Shown piece after piece: positions 4,182 through 51,114 of a DNA stretch of 64,000 nucleotides. A program made the translations under genes and the position numbers. Within the stretch, counting starts at the first letter, position 1. Each line of letters starts with the position of its first letter. The notes under the pieces are model-generated. The model saw nothing but the letters and a program-made list of their open reading frames with translations, was not told the DNA's origin and ran no database searches. Where the stretch lies: assembly GCA_902555985.1 (NCBI GenBank), contig CACDUI010000004.1, forward strand, positions 1 to 64,000, in the 5' to 3' direction. Source of the DNA: an uncultured Candidatus Actinomarina sp. (GTDB lineage: Bacteria; Actinomycetota; Acidimicrobiia; Actinomarinales; Actinomarinaceae).

Positions 4182-5041
4182 GCATAGTCGAATTATCTTT
4201 TGCAGCTTTTGCTATAGTTGGATTTCTCGGTATTGTTGGAATCGTTGTTATTGTTACTGGGAGAGCACCAAAAAGCTTTAATTGGAAGAAAAATCTAGAG
4301 AAAAAAGCATTAAAAGAAGACAAATCTCAGACTAATTTTTTAGAACCTGAACTACCCAAAGGAGAATCAGAAACAACTATTGATGAGATTGACGAACCAA
4401 TTATTGATTCAGATGGTGCTGTAAAGCTAGAAGAGAAAGTAATTTATGAGGAAATTTCTGAAGAGGAAGTAGGGATAAATAGAAGGCAATTTTTAACAAA
4501 AGCTTTAAGAATTTCCTTTGGTGCTTTCGCTGGTATTCAAGCAATTTCTTGGCTAGGTTTTTTCTGGCCAAAGGTTTCTGGTGGATTTGGTTCGAAAGTT
4601 GATGCTGGGCCAATCGAAGATATTAAAGGTCAGATTTTTCAGGCTGACGGATCAGTTATACCTGCTTTCATTCCCTCAGCCAGAGCATATGTGCTTCCTT
4701 TAGATGACTCTGCAGCAGCTAATTCACAATTTACTTCAGGATCTACAGTCACAGATGGCCTTGTTGCTGTTTATCAAAGGTGTGTTCATTTGGGCTGCCG
4801 AGTTCCTTGGTGTAACTCATCTCAAGGTTTTGAGTGTCCATGTCATGGTTCAAAATATAATATGATAGGCGAATACTTTGCTGGACCAGCACCAAGAAAT
4901 CTCGATAGATTTAATGTAGAAAATGTTGGCGGAAGGTTAGTAATAGATACAGGTACAATTATTGAATCTCCTAGAGCACCAGGTATGTCAGTAAAATATC
5001 CTCAAGGACTATCTTGTATTGCACTAACAACAGAGGAATAA
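4163..5041 (+). CDS. Rieske iron-sulfur protein (QcrA-like)
   Basis: CVHLGC...CPCHGSKYN Rieske motifs, TM segment upstream. Confidence 0.92.
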   Translation: MDSLRMSIVELSFAAFAIVGFLGIVGIVVIVTGRAPKSFNWKKNLEKKALKEDKSQTNFLEPELPKGESETTIDEIDEPIIDSDGAVKLEEKVIYEEISEEEVGINRRQFLTKALRISFGAFAGIQAISWLGFFWPKVSGGFGSKVDAGPIEDIKGQIFQADGSVIPAFIPSARAYVLPLDDSAAANSQFTSGSTVTDGLVAVYQRCVHLGCRVPWCNSSQGFECPCHGSKYNMIGEYFAGPAPRNLDRFNVENVGGRLVIDTGTIIESPRAPGMSVKYPQGLSCIALTTEE

Positions 5042-5042
5042 A

Positions 5043-6467
5043 ATGACTAGTTCACTCTCAATTACTCTAATTGCATTTGGTATCATTGCAGCTTTAGCAT
5101 TTTTTACAGCTGCTGGATTTAGAGGTTCAGGAAAAGTTAATGATTATGCACCTAACCTTTCTAAGTACAGAACAGATGATGATTTAGAAACAAAAACACT
5201 AGATAGAACTCTAACTGTTGCTGTATTGTTAGCTTCAATTTTAACAATTATGATCCCACTTTATTATCTTGGTGAACAAGAAAGGCAAGAAGGCTTTGTA
5301 GAAGAGTTTGATGAGGTATCTGTAGAACGTGGGGAGCATCTTTATGAAGAGTTTGGTTGTGGCAATTGTCATGGAGCTGATGGATCTGGTGGCGCTGCAT
5401 CATATGTCGAAAAGAGAAGTGGCATAAATGTTACATGGACTGCACCAGCAATTAATAATGTATTTTACAGATATGATGATGAAGAAGTTCGTTATTGGTT
5501 AATATATGGACGTGCCAACTCACCTATGCCAGCATGGGGACTAGAGGGTGGTGGCCCTATGAATGATGGACAATTAGATGATTTAATCGAGTACATGCAT
5601 CATTTTCAAATTACTCAAGAATCAGAACTTCGAACTATTGAGATGAATATCAATAGTTCTTTATCCAGAATAGAAACATCCGAATTATTAGTAGAAAATG
5701 AAATAGCCAGACAAAAAGAATTAATTCAAAGTGTTGAGGAAGCACCTTCAAAATTGCCTATAGTAGAAAAGGCTGTTCAAGATGTTTCTGCATTTCTATC
5801 CAAAGAAGGTGGGATTGATACAGATGAAGATGGTTTGAGTGACTCAACTGAAACGGAGCTTTCTACTTACAGTGCTTCAATTTCTGAGGCGTTAGGTACA
5901 TCAATTTTGAATTTAGATCCTGATAATGAACAGTCAATTCCAGGAAGAAAAGACTTATCAGTTGCTAAAGGGTATTTATCGCAGCTTGAATCGGAATTAA
6001 TCAATATAAGAATTGTTTCTGAGGGTTATGATAAATTTATTAATGAGGCCGAAACAGGTTTAGCATTTCTTGAAAAAGCACTTGAAGAGAAACTTTGGGA
6101 GGTTTCGTTTGATGAAATTGCTAACTCAACTTTTGATGGTGATTTAGAAAAAGCAATACGAGCAGTTGGATTATTCAATGCATACTGTGCAAGATGCCAT
6201 ACAGCGGGCTACTCTGCTGGTGTAGCATATACTAAAGAAATAGCCTCTGGGGGATTAGGACCTGCACTTAGAGCTGGAAGAGCGAATATTCAATTTAAGC
6301 AAAGAGAAGATTTGATAGATTTTATTGTTAAGGGTTCTGTGAATGGTAAAGCCTACGGTGTAAATGGTGTAGGTGGAGGAAAAATGCCTGGTTTTGGTGC
6401 AGTACTTCCTGAATCAGACATAGCTTTAATTATTGATTACTTGAGAGGAATGAAACCTGATGCGTGA
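5043..6467 (+). CDS. Diheme cytochrome c, membrane anchored (QcrC-like)
   Basis: Two CxxCH motifs (CGNCH, CARCH); N-terminal TM segments; in bc operon. Confidence 0.87.
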   Translation: MTSSLSITLIAFGIIAALAFFTAAGFRGSGKVNDYAPNLSKYRTDDDLETKTLDRTLTVAVLLASILTIMIPLYYLGEQERQEGFVEEFDEVSVERGEHLYEEFGCGNCHGADGSGGAASYVEKRSGINVTWTAPAINNVFYRYDDEEVRYWLIYGRANSPMPAWGLEGGGPMNDGQLDDLIEYMHHFQITQESELRTIEMNINSSLSRIETSELLVENEIARQKELIQSVEEAPSKLPIVEKAVQDVSAFLSKEGGIDTDEDGLSDSTETELSTYSASISEALGTSILNLDPDNEQSIPGRKDLSVAKGYLSQLESELINIRIVSEGYDKFINEAETGLAFLEKALEEKLWEVSFDEIANSTFDGDLEKAIRAVGLFNAYCARCHTAGYSAGVAYTKEIASGGLGPALRAGRANIQFKQREDLIDFIVKGSVNGKAYGVNGVGGGKMPGFGAVLPESDIALIIDYLRGMKPDA

Positions 6468-29903: not shown

Positions 29904-32504
29904 GTGAATAAAAAAATTATTTTTATTGTTTTAAGCCTTATTATTTCTTCTTGTTCAGGTGGAAATGAAAATACAATTGATGAATTAGAACAGCAAATTG
30001 TAGCCCTAGAAGAAAAAGGTGAACTAACTCCTGAAGAGGAAGCTGAATTAGAAGCACTCATTGAAGAGCAAGACTCTCTCACTGAATCCCAAGAAAATTT
30101 AGACGAAGAAGTCGAAAGCGCATATGATTCAGAATCCTACGATGCATGTCTTGAAATGATGGGTGCTGATTTTGGAGGGAGATTAAATTGTGCAGAAGAA
30201 CTAGACAAAAATGATCCAATATTCTCAAAATACTATACAGTAGGTGAGCCTGATCCAGAATTCAATCCAGGAAAGTTTCTTCCTAGGCACTGTACTTATG
30301 AAGGAGAGTTTAATGGAGAATTTTATGAAGAAACTTCTTTGATTGATATTCCAGAACTGTTGGAGAAACTTGACATTGATTATTTCCATGTTTCCCAAGG
30401 TCTTTATGAAGATTATAAAATACATCCCTTAAACATTGAAGATTATAAAGGAGAATATGGTGCATCTTTAGGAGCTATTTACTGTGCTTCTGACTGGTAC
30501 TTTGAACACGGTATTGGTGGAGATGGACTTGTTGTTGGAGATGAGCCAGAAGCTGAGTTACAAAAAAATTTCTATGGGTATTCTTCTTATACAAGAGTCT
30601 CTGAATTTTATACAACAAAAATTGGAGTTCAGCAAGGTGTATGGGGCCAGTGGATTCAAGCCCCAGGAGCACATCCCTATGGTCCTGGTGGTGGAACTAT
30701 AGAAGGTGGATATGGAATATACGAAAAATTTGGACGTTCAAAATACCCAACCTATATGGCTAGCGGAGCAAATAAGTTTTACAACGGAAACAGCACATAT
30801 AGCGGTTGGGGTTTTTACGAAAGACGTTGTGATTGTGCTGATTTTGGTGGTGTTCAATTAACAAATAAAGTTCTTAATCTTCCAAACGCTATCCATTTTG
30901 ATGAAGATCAAGAGGAGTATGCTGAAGATGGTGGAATATATTTTGGACATGGGTGGTTTGCACTCCCAATATTCAGTGGTGAGGAAAGGCCAGAATCTTT
31001 TTTACTAGATGATCACAGTGATCGGGGTAAATTAACCTGGACTTTTGTCTCTAATAGCGCTCAGTACAGTGGACCTATGTGGGCATACGTTCCAGAATTC
31101 TGGATTAGACACATAGATGTTAATAATGCTTTTACTTTGTTAGAAGATGGATCTGAAGACAATGAAGATCTTTTAGGAGAGGAGTTAAGAAAAATACTAA
31201 TCGAATATATTGCAGGTAGGTATGAAAACAAAGCTCTTAATGAATATATAAAAGGACTTGATTGGTATGTTGATAATGCTAATGACTACGATTATGAAAT
31301 GGAAACTCCTCTTTTTTGGACAGAGGAAAAAAATACTCTAGCTTATAGGTCAACTAATCACGTAGCTATTGGTGCAGAAATGTATGAACTTCCAATATTC
31401 ACAGAATATGACGATAACGGAGATCTGTATATCAAAATATTTCCGACAATGGCCCCTTCTTTAAAAGATAAAGAATTTTTTACACTAGATGCAAGGTCAT
31501 ATGATGTTGGCGTGTATAACAATTTTGTTAAGTATTTCAATGGAGATTCTGAAATTGAAGATGTAAATACAAATATAAAACAATACTCAACACCGCTTAT
31601 TGTAGAAACACATGATCGTGACCCTTTAGCAAAAAACCTAAAACAAGGAGGTTTATATTCTGTAGATGAAAGACTTGTTAGATGGAATCTTTACCTCCAG
31701 GGAGAAACAAAAAATGGAGAAACAAATACCTTTTGGGACTGGAGTGGCACTCCTACTGCAGAAAGAGATTTATCTCAATATTATAAAGTTTTAACACCAG
31801 GTGGAGTAAATGACTACACATCTTATCAATTCGTTCCCGTTGACAGTAATCAAGTTCCTGATAACTTAAAAATAATGGAAATGAACACTCTCGAACGAGG
31901 AAATTCATACATGCCACATATTAAATCTAATAGTGACAAGGTTTGGGAAGAAGAAATTAAAAAAAATACAGATAATGCATTTAATGTTGACTCTATCCCA
32001 TATGATTACTCTTGCTTCGATTGTGATAATGGCGGATGTGATACAACTGTATATGAGACAACATTAGATGATGGAAGCATGATTAAATATCGTTGGTATC
32101 GATTTAAAGATCAACCTACTTTTAAGTATTTATCAATAGATTATCCAGAAATATATACAGAGGAATACCTAGACTTTTTACAATTAAAAATTGAAAAAAT
32201 GCATAAAGAATGGCTTCATAATCAAGAATTCATTTCCAAGCCAAATAGTTTGGAAAATTTTCATCTTGTTGAATTAGATAATGGCATGGTTGTAGATCCA
32301 CCATCTGGAAAAGAATTTGGCTGGGTTCCAATAGTAATAGAGGTAGAAATACCATATGGAAAATATGTGACAGATAGAAATTATTATGATTTATCCTGCG
32401 GAACTTTTCCTGGAGATCCATCTTGTAATCTCAATGATATTAATGGTCAGGAGGGTAGGAAGATGATAGCTACCGACGGGGCTTATAGAGTAAGCACCCC
32501 GTAA
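29904..32504 (+). CDS. Large lipoprotein of unknown function (GTG start)
   Basis: Lipobox LIISSC|SG; Glu-rich coiled coil followed by an Asp/Tyr/Trp-rich domain. Confidence 0.65.
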   Translation: MNKKIIFIVLSLIISSCSGGNENTIDELEQQIVALEEKGELTPEEEAELEALIEEQDSLTESQENLDEEVESAYDSESYDACLEMMGADFGGRLNCAEELDKNDPIFSKYYTVGEPDPEFNPGKFLPRHCTYEGEFNGEFYEETSLIDIPELLEKLDIDYFHVSQGLYEDYKIHPLNIEDYKGEYGASLGAIYCASDWYFEHGIGGDGLVVGDEPEAELQKNFYGYSSYTRVSEFYTTKIGVQQGVWGQWIQAPGAHPYGPGGGTIEGGYGIYEKFGRSKYPTYMASGANKFYNGNSTYSGWGFYERRCDCADFGGVQLTNKVLNLPNAIHFDEDQEEYAEDGGIYFGHGWFALPIFSGEERPESFLLDDHSDRGKLTWTFVSNSAQYSGPMWAYVPEFWIRHIDVNNAFTLLEDGSEDNEDLLGEELRKILIEYIAGRYENKALNEYIKGLDWYVDNANDYDYEMETPLFWTEEKNTLAYRSTNHVAIGAEMYELPIFTEYDDNGDLYIKIFPTMAPSLKDKEFFTLDARSYDVGVYNNFVKYFNGDSEIEDVNTNIKQYSTPLIVETHDRDPLAKNLKQGGLYSVDERLVRWNLYLQGETKNGETNTFWDWSGTPTAERDLSQYYKVLTPGGVNDYTSYQFVPVDSNQVPDNLKIMEMNTLERGNSYMPHIKSNSDKVWEEEIKKNTDNAFNVDSIPYDYSCFDCDNGGCDTTVYETTLDDGSMIKYRWYRFKDQPTFKYLSIDYPEIYTEEYLDFLQLKIEKMHKEWLHNQEFISKPNSLENFHLVELDNGMVVDPPSGKEFGWVPIVIEVEIPYGKYVTDRNYYDLSCGTFPGDPSCNLNDINGQEGRKMIATDGAYRVSTP

Positions 32505-47733: not shown

Positions 47734-47767
47734 AAAATCTTATTAATATAAAAATAAAGAACTAGAA

Positions 47768-50700
47768 GTGAAAAAGTTAAAAGTTTTAATTATTGTTTTA
47801 TCACTCATTGCCTCTGCATGTGGTGGTTCTGATAATAACGTAGAAACATCTGTAGATACAACAACCTCAACCTCAACCTCTACAACAACTACATTGGTGG
47901 CTGAACCAGATATTGGTGAGGTAGTTGATGAAGCATCATTAGTTATACCTCCAATTTTGTTAAAGCCTTTAATTGGTGCAACAGGGGTTTTAACTAATGC
48001 CACGGAGGACTGGGAAGTGCTTTCAGCGATTACTCCATTAGAGATGGGTGTAAAAATTAGAACAGGAGATGATGCTACGGCCCAAATGTCTTTTGAAGAT
48101 GGCTCATCTTTATTAATGGGGGGTAATTCAGTTATTAATGTTAGAAGTTTTGATTATGATGAGGAAGCGAAATCTAGAGTACTAATTGTTGACTTAATTT
48201 CAGGAAGTGTTGCATATGATATTTTTAGTGACGGTTTAAGCGCTTCTTTAGCAAAAATAGTTACTCCAACATCTGAGCTATCAGTTCACGGAACAGAGGG
48301 TGTATTTGGATATGATGTAGCCACACTATCAGCTTCAAGTACTGTTCTTGAGGGTGGTGAAAATAGTGATGATGCAGTTTTTAGTGAGTTGTTACCAAGC
48401 GAGGATGGAACGCCAGTTCTAGTTGCAGTTTCACAAACTGCAGGCACAGAACTTGGAAGTGGCACTACAGGTGGTTCCGGCTGGACAGATGAAGACTCAT
48501 CTACAGTTGCACTTATAGTTGATGAGTTCGTTTCTAATATGGAAGGCGAATGCAGTTATACATGTAAAGCAGAAACTCAAGAAAATTTATCAGATGGAGT
48601 AGAAGACTTAACTGCTGATGTTGCTGCAAATGCAGTATTTACAGATACAGATTCAAAAAGAATGGACTTAGCACAGACTTTATTAGTTGCTGCAGGTGCA
48701 CCAAAAGATTTAACAGATTCTGTAGAAGTGTTAGCGACCGCAGTAGAGGAAGTTGCAGTTCCTGAATCAGAAGTCAAAGAGTTCATCGATGCAAATTGGC
48801 AAGAAGCTCCAGAGGATGGCCAATTGCAAGAATTACCTCCAATGTCTGAATTTTTTGGAACTTTTGCTGATGCTGCATCAGTACATGAAAATGAAACATT
48901 TGAGGATTTAGGATTTGATCATAATCAAGGCAATAATTTCAGATCACAACATGGCATGATGCAATTTATTTCAGCAGATACCAATGCTGTTAATGAGTTA
49001 GCACAGTCTGGGGATATGGCATCAGCCATGGCGTTAGCTGCATCAAATATGTTTGTAAATGCAGGCCAAGATGAGTTTGTTGAGGGAACATACTGTGCAG
49101 ATAATCCAGAAGACCCTGAGTGTGCTGCTGGGGCACCACCACCAGATTTTCTTGCACAAGCTTTTGCAGGCAATCATTTTGTTGAGGACATGGTTCAAGA
49201 TATGGGTTTTGAATACACCTTTACTGAGAACAATATAAAGCCTGGATATTGTGATGAACAACCATGGCTACCTGAGTGTGCAGATGGTCCACAATATGTT
49301 GGGGAGGCTTTTGAGGAAGGTGGAGCCTATTGTGATGCAAATCCTGAGAATTGTGAAGAAGGAGGTCTAAAGCCAGGTAATAATTTCTTTGGAGCGGCTC
49401 CACTAGATGACTCTTTTTGTGCTGACAATCCCGAATCTCCTGAGTGTAAAGGTGGAAATGCTCAAGCGGTTTATACATTTTTCCACGTATATGATGAAGA
49501 GGTTTTAGGAGATGAATGGGAACCAGTTGATTGTAACGAGTATCCAGATGATCCTATGTGTAGCGGTCAAGGTGATTTTTTCCATGAACATGTAGGAGAG
49601 GCAACAGGGCTTGCGTTAGATCGTGATGATATGTTTGATATATATGGTGGTCCTCAAGAATTACTAGGCCCCCCAGATGAATTCTGTAATGAAAATCCCG
49701 AAGCTCCTGAGTGCTCACCAGATTTTAAACCAGCTGATATTTATTCAGGTGGTGAATATGTAGCTCCAGGTTATTGTGATGAAACTCCTGATGCACCTGA
49801 GTGTGATTCTAATTTTGGTCAAGGCGGAGGACTTCAAGGCCCATTAACTGGAGGTTTACTAGCACAATACGCAGCTCCTGATCCAAATGCGCGTGCAGGC
49901 GAAAAGCCAGGTTTTTGTACAGAAGATCCAAACCATCCAGAATGTTTTAGGGATTATTATGGAGAGGAAAATTTAGATACAGGAGAATTTTTAGATAACC
50001 TATTTAGTGATGAATCATATGTTGACTTAGCACAACAAGGTGTTTTTTATGATTCAATAGATGGTGCTGGAGATTTAGCTGAAAATCGTTATGGTAACCA
50101 TAATGACTATTTAGTAGTAGATTGTACGATTCCTGAGAATCAAAGTGAACCAGCATGTTCTTCAGATTTTGACTCAGGGCAGCCAAGCTTATTCACTGGT
50201 GGCAATGAAGGAACAGAGCAATTTGAAGCTTTTAATCCTGAAGACTTAGTCACTCTCTGTGAGGAGAACCCTCAAGATCCTTTATGTTTTGCTCAACAAC
50301 CAGGAGGAAATGCCCCTATTCAGGGCGAAGCATTTGGTAGCTCTCCTGAAGGTAATCGTCCAGAAGGAGAAGCGAATACTGGTGGATTTTGGGGAAATGC
50401 AGAAAAAGCTGAAGAATTCAAAAATCAATCAGAAAGTTATGTTGAATTTGCAGGGACTTATTGTGATGAAAACCCAGATGACCCCTCTTGTTCACAGATA
50501 GCACCTCCACTACCACAGAACGGAATTATTCAAGATCAAGATTGTGCAGATAACCCTTATGCACCAGGTTGTCCACAAAGTGGTGGACAAGAAGGTCAGT
50601 CTCCTCCACCTGAAGGTGAAGACTATAATCCACCACCTGGTGATGGAGATATGCCACCTGAAGGAGAAGACATGCCACCACCTGGGGGTTATCAAGATCA

Positions 50701-51010
50701 AGAAGATTGTGCAGATAACCCTTATGCACCAGGTTGCCAGCCTAGTGAAGGAGACATGCCACCTGAAGGTGAAGGCTATAATCCACCACCTGGAGGAGAA
50801 GGTATGCCACCTGAAGGTGAAGGCTATAATCCACCACCTGAAGGTGAAGGCTATAATCCACCACCTGGAGAAGAGGGACCACCATCTGGAGGAGAAGGTA
50901 TGCCACCTGAAGGTGAAGGCTATAATCCACCACCTGAAGAAGAGGGACCACCATCTGAAGGAGAAGGTATGCCACCTGGAGAAGAGGGACCACCACCTGG
51001 AGACCCATAA
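47768..51010 (+). CDS. FecR-domain lipoprotein with Cys-motif repeats and Pro/Gly/Glu repeat tail (GTG start)
   Basis: Lipobox IASAC|GG; FecR-like LEMGVKIRTGDDATAQMSFEDGSSLLMGGNS...VSVHGTEG-type; about 13 C-x(8)-C motifs; PPEGEGYNPPP repeats. Confidence 0.78.
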   Translation: MKKLKVLIIVLSLIASACGGSDNNVETSVDTTTSTSTSTTTTLVAEPDIGEVVDEASLVIPPILLKPLIGATGVLTNATEDWEVLSAITPLEMGVKIRTGDDATAQMSFEDGSSLLMGGNSVINVRSFDYDEEAKSRVLIVDLISGSVAYDIFSDGLSASLAKIVTPTSELSVHGTEGVFGYDVATLSASSTVLEGGENSDDAVFSELLPSEDGTPVLVAVSQTAGTELGSGTTGGSGWTDEDSSTVALIVDEFVSNMEGECSYTCKAETQENLSDGVEDLTADVAANAVFTDTDSKRMDLAQTLLVAAGAPKDLTDSVEVLATAVEEVAVPESEVKEFIDANWQEAPEDGQLQELPPMSEFFGTFADAASVHENETFEDLGFDHNQGNNFRSQHGMMQFISADTNAVNELAQSGDMASAMALAASNMFVNAGQDEFVEGTYCADNPEDPECAAGAPPPDFLAQAFAGNHFVEDMVQDMGFEYTFTENNIKPGYCDEQPWLPECADGPQYVGEAFEEGGAYCDANPENCEEGGLKPGNNFFGAAPLDDSFCADNPESPECKGGNAQAVYTFFHVYDEEVLGDEWEPVDCNEYPDDPMCSGQGDFFHEHVGEATGLALDRDDMFDIYGGPQELLGPPDEFCNENPEAPECSPDFKPADIYSGGEYVAPGYCDETPDAPECDSNFGQGGGLQGPLTGGLLAQYAAPDPNARAGEKPGFCTEDPNHPECFRDYYGEENLDTGEFLDNLFSDESYVDLAQQGVFYDSIDGAGDLAENRYGNHNDYLVVDCTIPENQSEPACSSDFDSGQPSLFTGGNEGTEQFEAFNPEDLVTLCEENPQDPLCFAQQPGGNAPIQGEAFGSSPEGNRPEGEANTGGFWGNAEKAEEFKNQSESYVEFAGTYCDENPDDPSCSQIAPPLPQNGIIQDQDCADNPYAPGCPQSGGQEGQSPPPEGEDYNPPPGDGDMPPEGEDMPPPGGYQDQEDCADNPYAPGCQPSEGDMPPEGEGYNPPPGGEGMPPEGEGYNPPPEGEGYNPPPGEEGPPSGGEGMPPEGEGYNPPPEEEGPPSEGEGMPPGEEGPPPGDP
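50530..51005 (+). repeat. Degenerate in-frame tandem repeats (ccacctgaaggtgaaggctataatccacca-type units)
   Basis: Multiple near-identical units visible; translate to PPEGEGYNPPP/PPGEEGPP. Confidence 0.9.
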
Positions 51011-51041
51011 TATCTTTCGGAAATTGTTTTGGGTTTTAGAG

Positions 51042-51114
51042 CGGCCTCGGCAGGATTCGAACCTGCGACACCAGGTTTAGGAAACCTGTGCTCTATCCCC
51101 TGAGCTACGAGGCC
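51042..51114 (-). tRNA. tRNA-Arg(CCT)
   Basis: Minus-strand cloverleaf: acceptor GGCCTCG/CGAGGCC, anticodon stem-loop CAGGT-TTCCTAA-ACCTG, T arm GCAGGTTCGAATCCTGC; no encoded CCA. Confidence 0.95.

Follow-up and report, generated by a model that had tools for sequence, protein, structure and literature searches.

What does one of the smallest free-living cells gain from a large lipoprotein in which short cysteine loops recur along an extremely acidic chain? The question is raised by an open reading frame (positions 47768–51010, + strand, GTG start, 1,080 amino acids) in the window, a 64,000-nucleotide stretch from an uncultured Candidatus Actinomarina bacterium that belongs to contig C4 of a 1.03-Mb genome with 90.6% completeness. 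Members of this genus are among the smallest-genome free-living cells and are abundant in the sunlit ocean. A preliminary description of the DNA, made from its letters, had called the product a FecR lipoprotein with 13 copies of a short Cys motif, proposed that these form disulfide-closed acidic loops at irregular spacing and recognized no named repeat of this kind.

All 13 motif copies were recovered from the frame as 11 core and two tail loops, and the assignment to FecR-like lipoproteins was borne out. The protein begins with a signal peptide and lipobox (47768–47821, +), which reads LIASAC in the window's copy, LIASAC or LILSAC followed by GG in the orthologue alignment and L-S-A-C in many orthologues. 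Its Cys is kept in 15 of 15 aligned sequences, and Cys18 is the predicted lipidation site and membrane anchor. A Thr/Ser-rich linker (47822–47917, +) leads to the FecR domain (residues 96–196; 48053–48355, +), which matched Pfam PF04773 with E = 1e-7 and 32.8 bits against a cut-off of 24. There follow an invariant C-x3-C pair (CSYTC, residues 262–266; 48551–48565, +), within a conserved segment between the FecR domain and the loops (residues ~245–440; 48500–49087, +) that low-confidence AlphaFold2 helices suggest to be helical, then the loops and a lineage-variable Pro/Gly/Glu tandem-repeat tail (MPPEGEGYNPPP-like; 50756–51003, +). The FecR domain itself invites the idea of a FecR-type anti-sigma or iron-signaling regulator with a decorated tail. 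We give this hardly any credence: the N-terminal cytoplasmic anti-sigma segment is missing and a lipobox signal peptide stands in its place, which argues against the strict form, and neither a FecI sigma factor nor a TonB receptor was recognized beside the gene. LipL45 and Lsa33 of Leptospira (NCBIfam NF033165 and NF047849) are likewise FecR-domain lipoproteins; their profiles gave a weak match confined to the FecR region (E about 6e-4), at 19 bits against cut-offs of 350–420. To our knowledge, neither has a Cys-loop region or a Pro/Gly/Glu tail.

The eleven core loops span residues 443–908, a stretch of about 470 very acidic residues on the + strand. Located by the motif pattern and the orthologue alignment were loop 1 (CADNPEDPEC, Cys 443/452, 49094–49123), loop 2 (CDEQPWLPEC, Cys 495/504, 49250–49279), loop 4 (CADNPESPEC, Cys 551/560, 49418–49447), loop 5 (CNEYPDDPMC, Cys 589/598, 49532–49561), loop 6 (CNENPEAPEC, Cys 640/649, 49685–49714), loop 7 (CDETPDAPEC, Cys 670/679, 49775–49804), loop 8 (CTEDPNHPEC, Cys 717/726, 49916–49945), loop 10 (CEENPQDPLC, Cys 831/840, 50258–50287) and loop 11 (CDENPDDPSC, Cys 899/908, 50462–50491), with loops 6–8 also covered by an AlphaFold2 fragment. 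Loop 3 (CDANPENC, Cys 522/529, 49331–49354) and loop 9 (CTIPENQSEPAC, Cys 786/797, 50123–50158) were placed by alignment. The tail loops 12 (50543–50572, +) and 13 (50708–50737, +), both CADNPYAPGC, came from pattern and alignment and vary in presence among orthologues. Eleven of the 13 are C-x8-C, with loop 3 being C-x6-C and loop 9 C-x10-C. The pattern is better given as [YF]-C-x2-N-P-x2-P-E-C, in which the second P can be T, S, A, Y or E; P at position 5 is present in all 11 C-x8-C loops. At the DNA level, TGY-N9-CC-N7-CC-N4-TGY matched the forward strand of the 1.03-Mb genome 13 times, with 11 matches falling in the lipoprotein gene, compared to one or two genome-wide for the backward control of the exact pattern. 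A looser pattern matched 17 times in the window versus 3.7 ± 2.0 in shuffles. The motif thus clusters in this gene far above chance. An origin of the loops by duplication of larger units was rejected, as the similarity from loop to loop is confined to the loop and about eight residues upstream, beyond which the flanks are unrelated.

The conservation of these loops was assessed with 15 distinct Ca. Actinomarina orthologues, the window's copy included, which are 67–87% identical. All 15 sequences share the 25 core Cys without exception: the one in the lipobox, the two of the C-x3-C pair and the 22 of the eleven core loops. Downstream of the FecR domain, the 24 of 24 invariant non-lipidated core Cys compare with 39% of columns overall (hypergeometric P ~1e-10). 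Within the loops the Cys alone never change. The acidic positions +1, +2 and +5 are free to vary: among the nine C-x8-C core loops, none has an invariant +1 or +2, and one has an invariant +5, a Trp. Next best kept after the Cys are N and P (positions 3 and 4) together with D/A, P and E (positions 6–8). The gene is under strong purifying selection, with dN/dS of 0.03–0.20 and dS of up to about 1.4, at which synonymous sites are often saturated. These values leave next to no room for the view that the conservation is only apparent, reflecting close orthologues, and that the Cys array is low-complexity sequence that arose as a by-product and drifts. The tail past residue 915 is repetitive and variable, as drift would have it, but the loop-bearing core shows no tandem repetition, its loops have unrelated flanks and all its Cys are fixed at identities as low as 67%.

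The same alignment bears on metal binding, in which the loops would hold Ca2+ or other metals and the product would be a metal-stabilized or metal-capturing surface protein. In favor of it, Ca2+ and Mg2+ abound in seawater, loop positions 1, 2, 5 and 6 often carry an acidic residue, and the protein as a whole is extremely acidic, with 216 Asp and Glu against 25 Lys and Arg (net charge about −190). However, the acidic loop positions are the most variable ones whereas both Cys are fixed, and Pfam and PDB searches matched no known Ca2+ repeat; we regard a metal-binding role as unlikely. The case for the Ca2+ or metal-binding assay proposed with the preliminary description is weakened, because 12% of Glu and 24% of Asp are invariant compared to 100% of Cys. 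The term acidic loops therefore stands as far as acidity goes, which is true of the entire protein, but the acidic residues are not the conserved ones.

Variation among orthologues also respects the pairing of Cys. Cys are present or absent in pairs: both tail loops are missing from L009 and L010, L006, L008 and L037 carry an extra C-x10-C pair (CGDPSNSALPQC), and in L011 the number has grown to 49 Cys. In complete orthologues the total is always odd, corresponding to one lipidated Cys plus an even number, and the sole even total, in L033, comes from a sequence that the contig edge cuts off within a loop. This pattern strongly supports a predicted arrangement of one intra-loop disulfide per loop. 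A DsbB gene (E = 3e-11; G000:C4:72569–72814) lies ~22 kb downstream of the lipoprotein gene, beyond the window, and adjoins a gene for a membrane-anchored thioredoxin-like protein with HWCGYC (the pair spanning G000:C4:72569–73268); DsbB is present in 30 of the 35 genus genomes. VKOR and a PF13462-type DsbA are absent from the genome, and a PF13462-type DsbA was found in none of the 35 genus genomes. The oxidant can therefore only be inferred. That the protein might form no disulfides, as those absences could suggest, was considered and set aside, since DsbB and its thioredoxin-like neighbor offset them. Both hallmarks of an exported disulfide protein, paired Cys conservation and oxidative machinery in the genome, were found, and the bonds themselves are predicted. 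The proposal of disulfide-closed, irregularly spaced loops thus gains support from the 24 invariant Cys, their paired gain and loss, their even numbers and the DsbB/thioredoxin-like pair.

Relatives of the loop itself were sought with a 14-column profile built from 42 different copies (window and orthologues) and run against all PDB sequences. At E ≤ 10, six sequences were returned, all of them CP12 or CP12-derived, which count as one observation because they are homologous to one another. They included CP12 C-terminal peptides (QYCDDNPDAAEC, E = 0.005; YCSENPDAAEC, E = 0.017; a third, E = 0.032) and the GapB C-terminal extension FCKDNPADEEC (E 0.8–1.1). A profile with reversed inner columns retrieved nothing from the PDB, and one with scrambled columns a single unrelated match (E = 1). 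In Pfam, CP12 was the best and sole family for five of ten loop fragments (36–40 amino acids), aligned at profile positions 54–67 of 70 with E values of 0.018–0.3; the best fragment score against PF02672 (16.2 bits, E = 0.018) is below the gathering cut-off of 22.7 bits. The whole lipoprotein gave no match to PF02672 at E ≤ 1 and chance antibody matches only in the PDB. The absence of a named repeat holds in that the loop never exceeded the Pfam cut-off, and has to be amended in that the loop is very like the named C-terminal redox loop of CP12 and GapB.

The likeness to the CP12 C-terminal loop (PF02672 positions 54–67; PDB 3zdf, 3b1j and 6gfo) comprises the pattern [YF]-C-x2-N-P-x3-E-C with C-x8-C spacing, an aromatic residue before the first Cys, acidic character and a Glu before the second Cys (for example, YCDDNPDAAEC). 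The signature of the CP12 C-terminal pair, C-x3-P-x4-C, occurs in 11 copies in the lipoprotein. CP12, however, is a single cytosolic or plastid protein of ~80 amino acids with one loop, an N-terminal Cys pair and an AWD_VEE core, whereas the lipoprotein has 13 loops, is predicted to be extracellular and is without AWD_VEE. The AWD core is absent from its sequence, and the only other Cys pair is the C-x3-C at 262/266. Because the AWD_VEE core and N-terminal pair are missing and the residues after the second Cys vary, the lipoprotein is not a CP12. Over about 12 residues, homology with CP12 and convergence cannot be told apart.

In CP12, the C-terminal pair (C-x3-P-x4-C) is disordered when reduced and forms a stable helical turn when oxidized, with a very negative midpoint potential of about −350 mV, and the tail pair also occurs alone, fused to GapB and ADK3 (PMC8151241). 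The extension of chloroplast GAPDH B (GapB) and the ADK3 tail are precedents for the transfer of the CP12 tail loop to other proteins (PMC8151241 and PMC3906501); they differ in having one regulatory copy at the C terminus, with no array and no export. Given that the loops share the sequence pattern of this redox-dependent turn, they might be redox switches like CP12, reporting light or oxidant stress at the cell surface. We find this quite improbable, as a potential of about −350 mV implies that the loops should stay oxidized in oxygenated seawater, an exported reducing partner is not established and 13 redundant switches are unlikely. Mimicry of CP12, with the loops binding GAPDH that belongs to other cells or is exposed on the cell surface, would draw on the likeness to the GAPDH-binding tail and on the fact that the isolated tail is functional when fused to GapB or ADK3 (PMC8151241). 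It is very improbable: the residues after the loops differ (AAG, ADG, KGG, SPD, DSN, FRD, FAQ and SQI) and so provide no common flanking surface, and the protein is predicted to be extracellular.

Structure prediction was consistent with the CP12 comparison at the level of single loops. AlphaFold2 modeling of residues 1–920 with the 15 orthologues was unusable (mean pLDDT 36.4). A model of residues 612–740 reached a mean pLDDT of 61.3, with ~60–76 over the loops, and put a short helix at either Cys in all three of its loops. These predicted helices fit, but do not prove, a CP12-type turn. Because the full-length pLDDT is 36 and a Foldseek search of the 129-residue model against the PDB gave no match, the CP12-like loop fold is not established by structure.

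The lipoprotein gene was detected in 11 of the 35 Ca. Actinomarina genus genomes examined, which is a lower bound because many of these are incomplete; some genus genomes with 90% completeness are still without it. A search of 24 genomes from other genera of the class found no copy. When the motif profile was run over 395 class and 397 phylum genomes, arrays appeared in Ca. Actinomarina only, and matches outside it were scattered, single and near chance, with one plausible case (L086). The latter, from another genus of the class, is a small secreted protein whose mature part begins with PPGFCDDRPDHPACAG, a single loop. Searches with tblastn found no relative in phages, viral contigs likewise yielded none, and plasmid matches were confined to the FecR region in two Rhizobium records. 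In the window, the slot that the gene occupies (47734–51114) has a two-domain oxidoreductase gene on one side and tRNA-Arg(CCT) (51042–51114, −) as its right border; an ABC transporter is also a neighbor. In close relatives without the gene (oxidoreductase 90% identical) the slot is empty, at about 15 bp, and in other genus genomes it holds an inositol-monophosphatase-like or cold-shock-like gene. In the majority of the other carriers, an M20-type peptidase and an FtsX-type permease flank the gene (names of these four genes by inspection), and the closest relative (L029, 87% identical) has it in a third setting. The distribution of the gene is patchy, and its carriers have it in at least three different chromosomal locations. 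In the protein tree the window's copy groups with L029 and L002 with full support, so that chromosomal location does not simply follow phylogeny. The third-position GC of 0.189 equals that of the neighbors; the gene is therefore not a recent arrival from DNA of another base composition. In Ca. Actinomarinales, tRNAs are hot spots of an envelope island (PMC7771536); the same main genome paper does not mention FecR, lipoprotein, cysteine or disulfide. The neighbors differ between carriers and give no hint of a partner or ligand. Upstream of the L029 orthologue, positions 4363–5790 encode a protein with the zinc-metalloprotease motif HELGHALGLNH.

These observations are probably best explained by a very acidic cell-surface lipoprotein that is disulfide-stapled by CP12-type loops and acts as a strain-variable module. 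The lipidated Cys18 would hold the protein in the membrane, from which the linker, the FecR beta domain, the helical segment and the ~470 acidic residues with 11 disulfide loops would extend outward, with the variable Pro/Gly/Glu tail and its zero, two or more extra loops outermost. After export, the two Cys of each loop would be oxidized together, probably by the DsbB/thioredoxin-like pair, and each oxidized loop would fold as the CP12 C-terminal loop does (YC-x2-NP-x3-EC), into a short helical turn. We propose that the ectodomain needs such covalent local staples because, with a net charge near −190, it has little to pack; in seawater, the staples would hold this long, highly charged chain in a compact form and protect it from proteases. 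Tail loops could be added or dropped singly. Because the gene is patchy and moves between loci, a strain-variable surface trait is favored; the stapled region is most likely such a module and may be an adhesin, receptor, stalk or phage-facing surface, of which adhesion or a receptor role is a guess. Strong purifying selection on a 3.2-kb surface gene that some of these small-genome cells retain and move to new loci indicates that the product is worth its cost.

Neither FecR lipoproteins nor the CP12 tail loop is new; their combination, and an extracellular loop array, were not found in Pfam, NCBIfam, the PDB or the literature searched, and we know of no other CP12-type loop that forms an extracellular array. 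It is conceivable, though we would put it somewhat short of an even chance, that the oxidized turn of the CP12 tail is an independent reusable unit, here multiplied to 11–20 or more loops that fold an acidic, otherwise poorly packed surface polypeptide, in a repeat class new to Pfam whose gene moves between loci among strains. If the loops fold like CP12 tails, the CP12 tail would be one case of a general, portable, oxidation-dependent fold. The array would also offer a simple test system, in the form of peptides and multi-loop fragments, for how isolated disulfide turns stabilize highly charged extracellular proteins, and a sequence model with which exported proteins that currently lack any domain assignment could be annotated.

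Other lipoproteins of these genomes were also noted. A second large orphan lipoprotein in the window (29904–32504, +; 866 amino acids, lipobox SSCSGG) has a Glu-rich N-terminal stretch and one chance-like CGTFPGDPSC near its C terminus, and a search for Pfam matches gave none. Two short Ca. Actinomarina lipoproteins, L084 (G034) and L087 (G025), share with the long protein a loop following a signal peptide and Thr-rich repeat linker, and differ in being open frames of 336–373 amino acids without a FecR domain. L084 contains KFCEENPDHPQC twice and L087 contains KFCEDNPDNEQC once; both come from genomes in which the long gene was undetected, and both adjoin a rhodanese-like gene.
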